This document shows, piece by piece, positions 12,220-50,908 of a DNA stretch of 64,000 nt (position 1 is its first letter; each line of letters begins with the position of its first letter). Below the pieces are notes generated by a model. The model had not been told where the DNA came from, searched no databases, and saw only the letters and a program-made list of their open reading frames with translations. The stretch comes from Acidobacteriota bacterium (GTDB lineage Bacteria; Acidobacteriota; Vicinamibacteria; Vicinamibacterales; 2-12-FULL-66-21): contig QHWT01000049.1 in the NCBI GenBank assembly GCA_003222675.1, positions 105,313 through 169,312 on the forward strand, written 5' to 3'. The translations under genes and the position numbers were made by a program.

Positions 12220-12242
12220 CAAGGGGGACCCTCCATGGTGAG

Positions 12243-12420
12243 ACCTCGGAATTCTATCGCGGAAGCTCGCAGAGGAGCGCACGGAGGGAGACGGAGGCAA
12301 CGGATTTTTCAAACGAAGCAACGGAGGCAACGGAGGTCAACGGAAGAAACGCGTGTCACGAAGGCATTCACGCAAAGGCGCACGAGGCGCAGAGGGGCGG
12401 CCAAGACAATTGACGAAGTG
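12243..12420. repeat. (ACGGAGGCA)n / (AAGGCGCACGAGGCG) mosaic repeat, left part
   Basis: ACGGAGGGAGACGGAGGCAACGG and GCAACGGAGGCAACGGAGG runs, then CACGAAGGCATTCACGCAAAGGCGCACGAGGCGCAGAGG. The complement (TTAGCGCCTCC, TCTCTGCGTGAG, CCTTCGTTGC) is found at 12597-12740 beyond the palindrome, so the whole gap is roughly symmetrical. Confidence 0.65.
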
Positions 12421-12429
12421 GCTGCCTTG

Positions 12430-12580
12430 GCGATGCGCCGAACGCCGGCCTTCGGCTGCCGAAGGCCGACGTCTGCGGGTGACGCGATCCGCACATACAA
12501 GCAAGAGGGGTGCGGGCGTTGCTTGTATGTGCGGATCGCGTCACCCGCACCCCGCGCGCAGCGCGGGTTCGGCGCATCGC
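12430..12580. repeat. Large nested palindrome (four-stem cruciform), possible MITE/REP-like element or structured RNA
   Basis: An outer 14-bp stem joins 12430-12443 to 12567-12580. Inside it are three hairpins: GGCCTTCGG/CCGAAGGCC (about 12448-12468); a perfect 31-bp stem (12474-12504 with 12519-12549, 14-nt loop); and CCCGCGC/GCGCGGG (about 12551-12567). All arms checked by eye are perfect. No open frame or transposase is present. It sits at the centre of the inverted mosaic repeat that fills the gap. Confidence 0.75.
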
Positions 12581-12755
12581 GTTCCGCAGCCCTTCTCGGC
12601 GCCCTTAGCGCCTCCTGAATTTTCTCTGCGTGAGGCTGTCTTGGCCGCCGGGCCGCGCCGTAGCGTCTGCTCCTCCGTTCGTCTCCGGTGCCTTCGTTGC
12701 TTCGTGTGTGGTATCCGTTCCCTTCGTCTACTTCGTTGGCAAGCGTCTATACTGG
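12581..12755. repeat. Mosaic repeat, right part (CTTCGTTGCTTCGT words)
   Basis: Words such as CCTTAGCGCCTCC, TCTCTGCGTGAGGCTG, CTCCGTTCGTCTCCG and CCTTCGTTGCTTCGTGTG are complementary to the left part at 12243-12420. They run up to within a few bases of the oxidoreductase start at 12760. Confidence 0.6.
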
Positions 12756-12759
12756 CCCT

Positions 12760-14718
12760 ATGTGCACGCGCGACCGGGTGGGCCGTCTCGTTTCCGAGCT
12801 GCCGCAGGCGCCGCAGTATCCAACCCAGGGCGCCACGCTCTTTGTCGATCTCGAGCGGCGCGAGGTGCGCCGCGGCTATACGCCGATGCGGGTCGTGCAC
12901 GGCCTGCTCGCCGGGCGCGGCGCGAACATGTTCTACCTCCATCGCCTGCTCGACGAATCGCTGCACCCGCTCCACCCCGAGATTCCGCTCATCTTCGGGT
13001 CCGGCGTCCTGACGGGGATCGTCCCGAGCGCCGCGCGCGGCAATGCCTCGTCATGGTCTCCGGAATCCGGCGTGCTGATGGATTCGAATGCGGGGGACTA
13101 CTTTCCGTCGTTCATCCGCATGAACGGCATCGATCATCTCGTGCTGTTCGGCGAAGCGTCCATGTGGACGCTCCTGCACATTCGTGACGGCCAGCTCGCG
13201 TTCGTCGACGCCGTGCGGTACGTGGGCCTCGACAACATCGATCTGCGGCAGCGTATCCCGAATGACTTCGGCGGCACGTGGACGCGCGATCTCGCAATGG
13301 TGAACATCACGCGCGCCGGCGAGAACCTCGTGCTGACGAGCGCGATCATGGCCGGGCCGAAAGCCTGCTATGCGCGCGGCGGCCCCGGCGCGAAGATGGG
13401 ATCGCTCAAGCTGAAAGCCATCGTCGTGCAGGGGCAGACCCGCGATTTCGAGACCGCGCAGCCCTATAAGGGCTACAACCGCACGATCGCCCAGAAGCTG
13501 CTCGACACGTCGGTCGTGAAGCACGCGCTGAAGACGACCGGCACGCCCTTTCTCTACAAACCGAGCCGGATGCTCGGGGCGATGGGGACGAAGAACCACC
13601 AGGAAACCACCTGGACCGATCGCCTCGATGCCGAGCACATCACGCCGTATCGCCCCGGTATGGCGGGATGCTTTCGCTGTCCGGTGAACTGCCGCCCGTT
13701 GAACGAGCTGACTCCGGACCCTGCCGACAAATACGGCCGCGGCGACGGCCCCGAGTACGTGACGCTCGGCAAGTTCGGTCCGAATGTCGGCATCGATCGC
13801 ATCGAGCCGGTCATCCGATTGAACAACATCTGCAACGATCTCGGCCTCGATACCGCGTCGACCGGATCGACGATCGCATGGGCCATGGAGCTGTATCAGC
13901 GCGGACTCGTGACGCGCCATGACACGGATGGTCTCGATCTCACGTGGGGGAACGCGGAGACCGTCGAACAACTGCTCTTCAAGATGGCGGCGCGCGATGG
14001 ATTTGGCAGCACGCTCGCCGACGGCACGCGCGCGGTCGAGCGCGGAGGTTATCCCGCGGACGCTCTGAAGTACCGGATGGCGGTGAAGGGGTTGATGCAG
14101 AGCGATCCCCACGACGCACGGATCCTGAAAGCCTTCGCCCTCGGACTCGCCGTCGCGACGCGCGGCATGGATCATCTGCGCAACCGCGTGACGCTCGAGA
14201 TCAACGCGCGCATCAACGACGATCCAGCCTTCAAGGCGCGGCTCTATGGCGGTCCCGTCGGCGCCGCGCCGAACAGCTACGACGGCAAGGAGCGCGCGGT
14301 GCGCGTCTGCGAGAACGTGTATGCCATCGGCGACTCCGTCGGCATGTGCCGGTTCACGACGAAGCTGTTCAACAGCCCGTCGCTGCCGGGACTCGAGGAG
14401 TTCGCAAACCAGATCGGCAACGTCACCGGTCTGGAGATCGCGCCCGAGCAGCTCGACACGATCGGACACAACGTCATGGGCGTCGAACGGCTGATCAACT
14501 ACCGTCTGGGCGTCCGTCGCGAGCACGATACGCTGCCGGATCGCTGGTTCGACGAACCCGTCACCGTTGGCGCATACGCCGGCGAGAAAATCGACCGCGG
14601 CGAGTTCGACCGCATGCTCTCGCGTTTCTACGAGATCTCGGACCTCGACGAATCCGGGGTCCCGCGACCCGAGTGGCGGAACGAGCTCGAACGGGTGTTG
14701 GGGGCGCCCTACAACTAA
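12760..14718 (+). CDS. Aldehyde:ferredoxin oxidoreductase family (tungsten/molybdenum-pterin) enzyme
   Basis: 652-aa enzyme of the AOR family, which oxidises aldehydes (or reduces acids) with a bis-pterin W or Mo cofactor, one [4Fe-4S] cluster and ferredoxin. Cluster ligands are visible: C-x2-C-x3-C in AGCFRCPVNCRPL (near 13668-13700) and the distal Cys in GDSVGMCRFTTK (near 14330-14355). Start 12760 (ATG) is used because everything upstream is intergenic repeat. The stop overlaps the next gene's ATG (TAATG), a MoaD-like sulfur carrier, which supports a pterin-enzyme role. Aldehyde specificity is unknown. Unusual for an otherwise aerobic-looking region. Confidence 0.92.
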   Translation: MCTRDRVGRLVSELPQAPQYPTQGATLFVDLERREVRRGYTPMRVVHGLLAGRGANMFYLHRLLDESLHPLHPEIPLIFGSGVLTGIVPSAARGNASSWSPESGVLMDSNAGDYFPSFIRMNGIDHLVLFGEASMWTLLHIRDGQLAFVDAVRYVGLDNIDLRQRIPNDFGGTWTRDLAMVNITRAGENLVLTSAIMAGPKACYARGGPGAKMGSLKLKAIVVQGQTRDFETAQPYKGYNRTIAQKLLDTSVVKHALKTTGTPFLYKPSRMLGAMGTKNHQETTWTDRLDAEHITPYRPGMAGCFRCPVNCRPLNELTPDPADKYGRGDGPEYVTLGKFGPNVGIDRIEPVIRLNNICNDLGLDTASTGSTIAWAMELYQRGLVTRHDTDGLDLTWGNAETVEQLLFKMAARDGFGSTLADGTRAVERGGYPADALKYRMAVKGLMQSDPHDARILKAFALGLAVATRGMDHLRNRVTLEINARINDDPAFKARLYGGPVGAAPNSYDGKERAVRVCENVYAIGDSVGMCRFTTKLFNSPSLPGLEEFANQIGNVTGLEIAPEQLDTIGHNVMGVERLINYRLGVRREHDTLPDRWFDEPVTVGAYAGEKIDRGEFDRMLSRFYEISDLDESGVPRPEWRNELERVLGAPYN

Positions 14719-39845: not shown

Positions 39846-40982
39846 ATGATCAGTGTTGCCGCGATCAGGATGCAGCAGTTCGGTGTGCAGTTCTATCAGG
39901 CCTCTCTCTCAGCCAACGACATCGACAAGCTCGTCCGTTTCGAAGTGCTCAGCTACGGCGAGCAGGCGCAGCCAGTCCGCGGCGGGCGCAAGAAGACGGC
40001 AGCCCCGTCAAAGGTCAACTGGGACTTGCTGGAGCGCCGCATTGCCGCGAACGAGAAGGCGTACCAGCGGCAGATCATCCGCCGGAAGATCGACGAGCTG
40101 GTGCAGTACTACGAGCAGTGCCGGCAGGCCCGCGACCTGCCGTCGATCGCGGGCGCGGTGATCATTTCCTGCGACGAGACGCTCAAGTTCGAGGCGGTTG
40201 ATGAGGGCTCGTCACTCGGGCTTCTGAAAGTGCCCGAACGTGAAGGCATTCTGCGCGCTATCGACGGGCAGCACCGGCTGCTCGCGCTGCACGCCGACAT
40301 CGACCGCTTCGGCGAGGAGCCCTTCACCGTTCCAGCGGTCATCTTCGATCGCCTTCCCGAAGATCACGTCGTCCAGATGTTCGTGACGATCAACGCGAAG
40401 CACACGCGGTTGAACGCATCGCATCTCGTGTCGCTCTCGGGGCGCCAGCTTTACAGCGACGAGAACCTGGCGGCCGCGCACGACGTCGTCCGTGCGCTGA
40501 ACGATCGCGAGGACTCGCCGCTCCACGGGGAGATCAAGCTGCTGGGCGTCGGCGGCGGCCGCGTCGCGCAGGCGCCGCTCGCGCAGGAGCTGAAGAAGCT
40601 GTTTGCCAGCGATGCATTCGGCGCCGGGCGCAAGGGGGACACATTCCGGGAAGATGCGAAGAAGTTCTTCGTCAATTATCTGAAGCAGGTCGCGCAGGTG
40701 TTCAACGCGGCCTGGAACGGCCGCAAGTACAGCATCAAGAGCGCCACGGCGCTGCGTGCGTTCATCCGCGTCGCGCCGGATGTGGTCCGGCGGCTGGATC
40801 AGGAGCATGCGGATCGCAGCGATTTCCGCGCGATCGGCCGCGTCATTTCGCCGTGGGGCCGCCGCATCGGCGACCTGCGGTTCGAGACGGAAGGGGCCTG
40901 GAAAAGGGGCGTGACAACCGTCGATTTGCTCGCGAAGGAACTGCGACTCGCGCTTCAATACCCGGAAGGGGCGCAGGTCTGA
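39846..40982 (+). CDS. DGQHR-domain protein (DndB/ParB-like fold)
   Basis: 378 aa. The naming motif is present in REGILRAIDGQHRLLALHAD (near 40240-40285), followed by VQMFVTINAKHTRLNASHL, which resembles the N-K-x-x-x-R block of DndB-like proteins. DGQHR proteins accompany DNA phosphorothioation (DndB) and other DNA modification or defence loci, but no dnd genes are adjacent. The C-terminal half (KFFVNYLKQVAQVFNAAW) is helical. It is an orphan with its own promoter, so a DNA-binding or regulatory role is inference only. Confidence 0.82.
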   Translation: MISVAAIRMQQFGVQFYQASLSANDIDKLVRFEVLSYGEQAQPVRGGRKKTAAPSKVNWDLLERRIAANEKAYQRQIIRRKIDELVQYYEQCRQARDLPSIAGAVIISCDETLKFEAVDEGSSLGLLKVPEREGILRAIDGQHRLLALHADIDRFGEEPFTVPAVIFDRLPEDHVVQMFVTINAKHTRLNASHLVSLSGRQLYSDENLAAAHDVVRALNDREDSPLHGEIKLLGVGGGRVAQAPLAQELKKLFASDAFGAGRKGDTFREDAKKFFVNYLKQVAQVFNAAWNGRKYSIKSATALRAFIRVAPDVVRRLDQEHADRSDFRAIGRVISPWGRRIGDLRFETEGAWKRGVTTVDLLAKELRLALQYPEGAQV

Positions 40983-40983
40983 G

Positions 40984-41110
40984 GATTTGGTGATTGGGTG
41001 ATCCGGTGATTTGGTGATCGGGCTTGCGGTACCCGCCCGCGCTTCAATAGCAACCCGCGGTAGCGGGTGCGATGCGAGATCACCAAATCACCGGACTACA
41101 AAATCACCAA
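40984..41110. repeat. Inverted (GATTTGGTGATT)n repeat enclosing a palindrome
   Basis: GGATTTGGTGATTGGGTGATC and GGTGATTTGGTGATC (40983-41020) are answered by GATCACCAAATCACC and AAATCACCAAAT (41090-41112). Between them, CGGTACCCGCCCGCGC...CGCGGTAGCGGGTGCG forms a second inverted pair. Confidence 0.7.
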
Positions 41111-41111
41111 A

Positions 41112-41141
41112 TAAAAAGGGGCACCACTTTCGTGATGCCCC
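41112..41141 (-). terminator. Minus-strand intrinsic terminator without an obvious minus-strand gene
   Basis: On the minus strand a 10-bp stem (GGGGCATCAC/GTGGTGCCCC) with a GAAA loop is followed by five T residues. It lies between two plus-strand genes. Either it ends a small antisense/intergenic RNA, or the hairpin is part of the plus-strand leader. Confidence 0.6.
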
Positions 41142-50134: not shown

Positions 50135-50908
50135 TTGCCGTCGCTCTCCAACAAAACTGGTCTCATCGTCGGAGTCGCGAACAAACGATCCATCGCCTGG
50201 GCGATCGCGCAGGCGGCCTCAACAGCCGGCGCGCGCGTCGCGCTGACTTACCAGGGTGAACGGCTCGAAGAGAACGTGCGTGAGCTGGCCGGTGATCTGA
50301 CGGATCCGCTCGTGCTCCCCTGCGACGTCACGGAAGACGCGCAGATCGCGCGGGTGTTCGACGAAGTGGAGCGATCGTTCGGCGGTCTCGATTTCGTCGT
50401 GCATGGTGCCGCATTCGCGGCGCGCGAAGACCTCAGCAATCCATTCGTCCAGACGTCGAGAGACGGGTTCAGGCTGGCGCTCGACGTCAGCGCCTACTCG
50501 CTCATCGCGCTCTCGCGGGGCGCGCTGCCGCTGATGGAAAAGCGCGGCGGCGGATCGATTCTGACGCTGACGTATCTCGGCAGCGAGCGCGTCTTCCAGA
50601 ACTACAACGTGATGGGCGTTGCGAAGGCGGCACTCGAGTCGACCGTCCGCTATCTCGCCGCCGACCTCGGGCCGAAGAACATTCGCGTCAACGCGATCTC
50701 CGCGGGGCCGATCAAGACGCTCGCCGCGTCGGGCATCTCGGGCTTCTCGAGCATCCTCCAGCACTATCGCGATCGCGCGCCACTCCGACGTACGGTCGAC
50801 ACATCTGAAGTCGCCGACGCCGCAGTGTTCCTCTTAAGCGACGCGGGCCGCGCCGTCACCGCCGAAGTGCTGATGGTCGATGGCGGCTATCACGCGACCG
50901 GGATGTGA
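50135..50908 (+). CDS. fabI: Enoyl-[acyl-carrier-protein] reductase, NADH (FabI)
   Basis: 257-aa SDR that makes the last reduction of the fatty-acid elongation cycle. The FabI-type start GLIVGVANKRSIAWAIAQAA binds NAD. The active-site Tyr and Lys are in NYNVMGVAKAALE (spacing Y-x6-K as in FabI). IRVNAISAGPIKTLAASGI and DSSEVADAA-like ends are typical. The start TTG 50135 lies at the edge of the repeat block; no ATG is available near the Rossmann motif. FabI is the triclosan/isoniazid-type target enzyme. Confidence 0.92.
   Translation: MPSLSNKTGLIVGVANKRSIAWAIAQAASTAGARVALTYQGERLEENVRELAGDLTDPLVLPCDVTEDAQIARVFDEVERSFGGLDFVVHGAAFAAREDLSNPFVQTSRDGFRLALDVSAYSLIALSRGALPLMEKRGGGSILTLTYLGSERVFQNYNVMGVAKAALESTVRYLAADLGPKNIRVNAISAGPIKTLAASGISGFSSILQHYRDRAPLRRTVDTSEVADAAVFLLSDAGRAVTAEVLMVDGGYHATGM

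Follow-up and report, generated by a model that had tools for sequence, protein, structure and literature searches.

The intergenic gap at about 12220-12760 of the window, by which we mean the whole 64,000-nucleotide stretch of acidobacterial DNA analysed here, is bounded by a leftward gene on one side and a rightward gene on the other. It harbors a palindromic unit of four stems, which we term "clover", in which an outer stem encloses a long hairpin with a short one on either side (Table 1). Repeat search and DNA folding agree on this layout, which the initial annotation had read as a 14-bp outer stem enclosing three hairpins, and they recover the proposed perfect long stem together with its loop. 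The further statement that all arms are perfect holds for the outer stem and the long hairpin, but not for hairpin 1. Folded as DNA, the clover strand adopts exactly the four-stem structure at -87.9 kcal/mol, compared with -45.7 ± 3.2 kcal/mol for its shuffles (z -13.3; 0/200 as good). The same stretch also folds as RNA. No Rfam family reaches its gathering score for the feature, and a known RNA family was rejected as a candidate, the matches lying far under that score and resembling long-hairpin artefacts.

Table 1. Coordinates of the clover stems and of the mosaic arms around them (window positions).
Feature	Position	Strand	Properties and support
Clover outer stem, 5' side and 3' side	12430-12443 / 12567-12580	+	14 nt, 100% complementary; repeat search; covaries between copies
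Clover hairpin 1 (GCCGGCC type)	12442-12472	+	Arms 12442-12456 / 12458-12472, 93%, one mismatch; repeat search and DNA fold
Clover long hairpin	12474-12549	+	Arms 12474-12504 / 12519-12549, 31 bp, 100%, 14-nt loop
Clover hairpin 3, CCCGCGC(GCA)GCGCGGG, C(GNA)G triloop	12551-12567	+	Sequence reading and DNA fold
Outer left mosaic arm, type A (ACGGAGGCAACGG / AAACGAAGCAACGGAGG units)	12284-12347	+	77% complementary to 12671-12734 (64 nt)
Outer right mosaic arm, type A'	12671-12734	+	Pairs with 12284-12347
Inner left mosaic arm, type C (TTCACGCAAAGGCGCACGAGGCGCAGAGG ... AAGACAATTGACGAAGTGGCTGC)	12355-12429	+	Aligns with the inner arms of L063, L065, and L072
Inner right mosaic arm, type C' (complementary orientation)	12581-12662	+	Arm alignment

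The flanking mosaic repeats had been described as roughly complementary, and this is borne out by the outer arm pair as well as by a further pair at 12386-12408 / 12637-12659 (23 nt, 83%; repeat search). Moreover, the entire gap (12243-12755, 513 nt) folds with a z of -14.7, in agreement with the earlier view of one large inverted structure, and the ORFs across it look accidental, in line with the lack of coding capacity noted before. According to the ORF list of the gap, no GxxExxY ORF (see below) lies between the arms; the copy in the window is solo and is classed as a derivative lacking the gene rather than as a full unit. The type-A arm occurs at about 30 other places in the genome, including both sides of a GxxExxY gene on contig C9. 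Because the inner arms are of type C, which surrounds other clovers without type-A arms (L063, L065, L072), while the outer arms are of type A, the window copy is, as judged from the alignments, a composite of a type-C clover unit within a type-A arm pair. Either nested insertion or exchange could have produced it. Elsewhere in the window, at 40930-41135, a second three-branch fold (stems 13, 49, and 2; paired fraction 0.71) is weak and may be coding sequence.

Clover copies and the covariation of their stems

Matches to the gap sequence occur at >100 places of the 7.16-Mb source genome, mostly through the mosaic arms, and the clover plan recurs repeatedly among about 40 matching loci that were folded. 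A covariance model (R1), built from 13 copies, all of them solo and taken without the outer stem, retrieves about 24 full clovers from the source genome along with several decayed or partial ones. It further finds at least 25 matches in the complete genome G008 and 11 in G003, and no clover in the same-genus genome G001 or in G010. The clover is thus demonstrably dispersed. All 22 copies that were checked lie between genes, and the orientation of their neighbors (convergent 7, co-directional 12, divergent 3) resembles the background.

The long hairpin keeps its middle position and its length of about 33 bp. Over 43 distinct clovers, an outer stem of 7-26 pairs surrounds three hairpins, the long one measuring 33.2 ± 2.5 pairs. 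Its middle position was a condition for counting these 43; in a first set assembled without the condition, 26/26 comply. Of the small hairpins in the same 43 clovers, 64/70 have triloops closed by C-G, and 51/70 loops read GNA or the complement TNC; CCGCGCGNAGCGCGG from hairpin 3 has 36 copies in the genome, whereas its reversed control has 3. As a single-stranded DNA mini-hairpin, C(GNA)G has unusual stability, which we take as a lead and not as a test. Decayed copies without the long hairpin persist (L040, L063, L070), a loss that is expected of an unstable palindrome.

In the alignment of copies (A4), 94.6% of the cells are paired and both sides have changed in 20/36 pairs. Doubly changed cells number 61, compared with 18.8 ± 3.9 after shuffling (0/500) and 5-13 with slid partners. 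As the A4 copies were picked by their fold, the outer stem, which R1 does not contain, was used for a check designed against this selection bias. Complementarity of these flanks (score ≥10) is seen in 83% of 35 R1-found copies versus 5.4% of flanks swapped between copies, and the outer-stem sequences differ widely among the 35. Arms of the long stem share 91% identity within a copy and 65% between copies, a difference that is partly biased by choosing copies for their fold. At the level of DNA sequence, all stems covary with the exception of the near-invariant hairpin 3. Selection on the stems, one of the two options raised by the initial annotation, is supported by this covariance check across copies. 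A single-copy feature with unconserved stems, which would have refuted that reading, is not what we find.

Covariation could also arise without selection if a mutational process, such as template switching or inversion at quasi-palindromes, copies one arm onto the other. Two observations would fit such a process: the two clovers of L122 have the long-hairpin tip in opposite orientations, and a mismatched pair that recurs (A4 columns 89/115) appears in both orientations between copies. However, the outer stem, with about 120 nt between its arms, shows equally strict covariation, and the mosaic arms have not been homogenized within the window copy, where they remain at 77%. Nor does arm copying explain the dispersal of the clover or its linkage to a nuclease gene. 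As a complete explanation we therefore consider it unlikely; arm-to-arm copying may still contribute to stem matching and could act alongside selection. In the L122 clovers (1121-1260 and 2011-2151), which are otherwise in direct orientation, the tip aligns with a score of 32 inverted versus 20 direct, and this flip-flop may reveal strand exchange within the palindrome.

GxxExxY genes, mosaic arms, and clovers

On C9 (82501-83220), the type-A arm pair encloses an ORF matching PF13366 and TIGR04256 (GxxExxY), and R1 detects a clover remnant beside this gene (L077 1373-1443, E 2e-4). All 3/3 intact GxxExxY genes of the source genome lie within inverted arms, formed from three different unit motifs. 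Across the order, clovers are present in 8/32 GxxExxY loci versus 0/54 control loci (about p = 2e-4), the controls comprising 30 Y1_Tnp, 8 PF05635, and 16 flanking-gene loci. R1 places clovers at 9/32 GxxExxY loci with E < 0.01, including the C9 remnant. In G036, two R1 clovers are located 140-165 bp from GxxExxY genes, and at L122, L132, L140, and L232 the gene is bracketed by two directly oriented clovers, which the arms enclose in turn. GxxExxY is the only gene seen inside clover units. These loci document a physical linkage of clover and arms to GxxExxY genes.

The arms, whose motif is a repeated unit of about 9-10 bp, extend far beyond the order. In a set of 80 GxxExxY loci from many phyla, of which 76 were scorable, inverted arms within 700 bp score >16 in 62/76 versus 5/269 shifted controls, and units of the CACAGAG kind are the most frequent. 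A clover is present in none of these 76 loci (L150-L225). Thus, as far as sequence comparison reaches, arms accompany GxxExxY widely, and clovers are seen only in acidobacterial loci. The family has no match in phages, and it occurs in eight plasmid records (one region read). A defence system was considered and set aside, PADLOC giving only weak matches (E 0.03 or worse).

A similar layout surrounds PF05635 genes (23S_rRNA_IVP, four-helix-bundle) of the source genome, which lie within inverted mosaic arms in 8/8 cases (L082-L089). Their arms score 18-49.5 against a control maximum of 15 and are composed of TAGGAGC, TGCGGGG, GGTTCAC, and TGATCCC units. PF05635 is, by its arm-gene-arm' arrangement, a second small gene family of this layout.

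The GxxExxY protein has the motifs and the modelled fold of a nuclease family. The family alignment contains invariant E23, D63, E73-x-K75, and Q87, and the linked gene meets the criteria of the E, D, ExK, and QxxxY motifs and of a PD-(D/E)XK (RecB/Cas4-like) fold; its active-site residues are intact. The AlphaFold model is PD-(D/E)XK-like (pLDDT 96). Its best solved structural matches are of the RecB/Cas4 and lambda-exonuclease types, namely SSO0001 (4ic1; Z 9.3) and LHK-Exo (Foldseek E 4e-3); Hjc resolvases rank below these (Z 7.2). No solved relatives of GxxExxY were found by sequence. The structural matches are of middling strength and indicate the fold, not the function; nuclease activity is inferred.

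Intergenic palindromes in many copies are known from REP/REPIN elements, which are believed to be moved in trans by the single-copy RAYT gene (TnpA-REP), itself flanked or accompanied by the palindromes, with recognition of single-stranded hairpins (PMC8266576, PMC3116915, PMC8049555). The clover resembles them in being short palindromic DNA dispersed between genes. Unlike a REP, a single or paired hairpin of 20-40 bp, it has four stems in about 150 bp and is nested in long mosaic arms, and the gene linked to it encodes a putative PD-(D/E)XK nuclease instead of an HUH/Y1 transposase. The clover might nevertheless be REP/REPIN-like and be moved by a Y1 (HUH) RAYT transposase, with GxxExxY genes as passengers, given that REPs, also palindromes, are believed to spread in trans (PMC8266576, PMC3116915) and that Y1_Tnp genes are present in G008, the source genome, and most relatives, so that G008 would possess a mover. 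Yet a clover is found next to 0/30 Y1_Tnp genes from nine genomes, where R1 gives only two marginal matches (E 0.015 and 0.036), and these genes have different inverted REP-like repeats of their own (20/27; L317-L343; e.g. GGGGTCAGACCCC). Further, G003 has its 11 clover matches but no Y1_Tnp match. We regard a RAYT-driven clover as quite unlikely.

Orthologous sites and the question of an RNA role

In G001, from the same genus, the orthologous gap holds about 45 bp against the roughly 500 bp found in the window, and R1 detects no clover when applied to the orthologous locus of 13 relatives. A recent insertion, the second option of the initial annotation, which recognised no transposase ends, is thereby supported. 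In G006, the orthologous gap (L097, upstream of the orthologous gene) contains a different inverted mosaic repeat with units like GACGTGCGACGTGCG, as if a single gap attracted different mosaic elements.

Two units from another family of the order are likewise absent from related genomes. The L140 unit of G076, with the order arm-clover-gene-clover-arm' over about 920 bp, is missing at the same spot in the congeners G120 and G069, and the L232 unit of G036 is missing in G076. Gain or loss takes, as inferred from these comparisons, the entire arm-to-arm stretch. The junctions at the window locus and at the two other units are too diverged to define a target-site duplication (relatives about 70-85% identical; low-complexity arms). 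At the site of the L232 unit, G069 (C12 near 50452-50584; L273) has neither gene nor clover, just two short mosaic arms of a different kind, GACACGGTGACACGG ... CTGAGTCTCTGTGG.

The non-Watson-Crick cells of the long stem comprise 8 G.T and 6 A.C in the per-pair table. Because G.T is no commoner than A.C, and selection on RNA would favor G.U, DNA and not RNA is most likely the level at which the fold is maintained. That the clover acts as RNA under host selection, be it a structured transcript, an attenuator, or a bidirectional terminator, is very improbable: it does fold as RNA and its stems do covary, but G.U should prevail and does not, the neighbor orientations are ill-suited to a terminator, the copy is missing at the orthologous site of relatives, and copies without the long hairpin survive. 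Of the readings as RNA, as a terminator, or as the product of arm correction alone, none passes every test.

A putative nuclease-linked mobile element

We consider it probable, without regarding it as settled, that the window feature represents a dispersed mobile element linked to GxxExxY, here as a solo copy without the gene, the nuclease being its inferred mover. This assignment upholds the interpretation of the initial annotation, which had missed the family-wide architecture, the link to the GxxExxY nuclease gene, and the nesting of two arm families. The role of the nuclease as mover is inferred because it rests on the physical linkage of the gene to clovers and arms.

A full-length member carries the small PD-(D/E)XK nuclease gene (GxxExxY, PF13366/TIGR04256) within the arms, beside one clover or between two. 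When one strand becomes single-stranded, for example as lagging-strand template, arms and clover could fold. The RecB/Cas4-like GxxExxY nuclease would then recognize and cut the folded DNA, and the released or copied unit would be joined into another intergenic gap. Gene-less copies such as that in the window would be moved in trans, in the manner of MITEs with their transposase or of REPs with RAYT. Three points are inferences, with no cutting or joining data: the nuclease as mover of the clover, the fold as substrate of the nuclease, and the single-stranded route.

Among known elements, MITEs are close to the window copy, which is gene-less, has inverted ends, is missing at orthologous sites, and shares its arms with a gene-carrying copy, that at C9 with its type-A arms and decayed clover. 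Unlike MITEs, the clover element has no known transposase, and its ends are variable mosaic arrays and not fixed terminal repeats. We therefore describe it as a dispersed palindromic element akin to REP/RAYT and MITE, which would constitute a new class if the nuclease is the mover.

Two observations count against this reading of the window feature. No PF13366 gene was found in the clover-rich genomes G008 and G003 (L228, L229, L240, L241); either the autonomous copy was lost, as for MITEs, or these clovers have a different mover. Conversely, most GxxExxY units are without a clover, as are all of L150-L225, and consequently spread of the gene itself does not require a clover. On a broader and more tentative view, possible but not one we would yet call probable, these elements form a class of bacterial mobile DNA without a known transposase that depends for its movement on a small PD-(D/E)XK nuclease active on folded DNA, and in which mosaic arms occur in many phyla and the acidobacterial three-hairpin clover spreads as a gene-less parasite.

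The open-access papers searched give no account of mobility, arms, or clovers for GxxExxY (TIGR04256/PF13366), an absence that is weak evidence; they mention GxxExxY twice in passing, PF13366 once, and TIGR04256 not at all. GxxExxY genes are widespread and their role is not known; their regular siting between inverted mosaic arms suggests an overlooked mobile element, for which the clover provides a testable DNA substrate. If true, this proposal would also hint at where the periodic intergenic repeats of the acagagacacagag type come from. To our knowledge, the PD-(D/E)XK class has not been known to mobilize elements of the clover kind, and if the nuclease does move the clover, bacterial mobile DNA would gain a new class of mobilizing enzyme.
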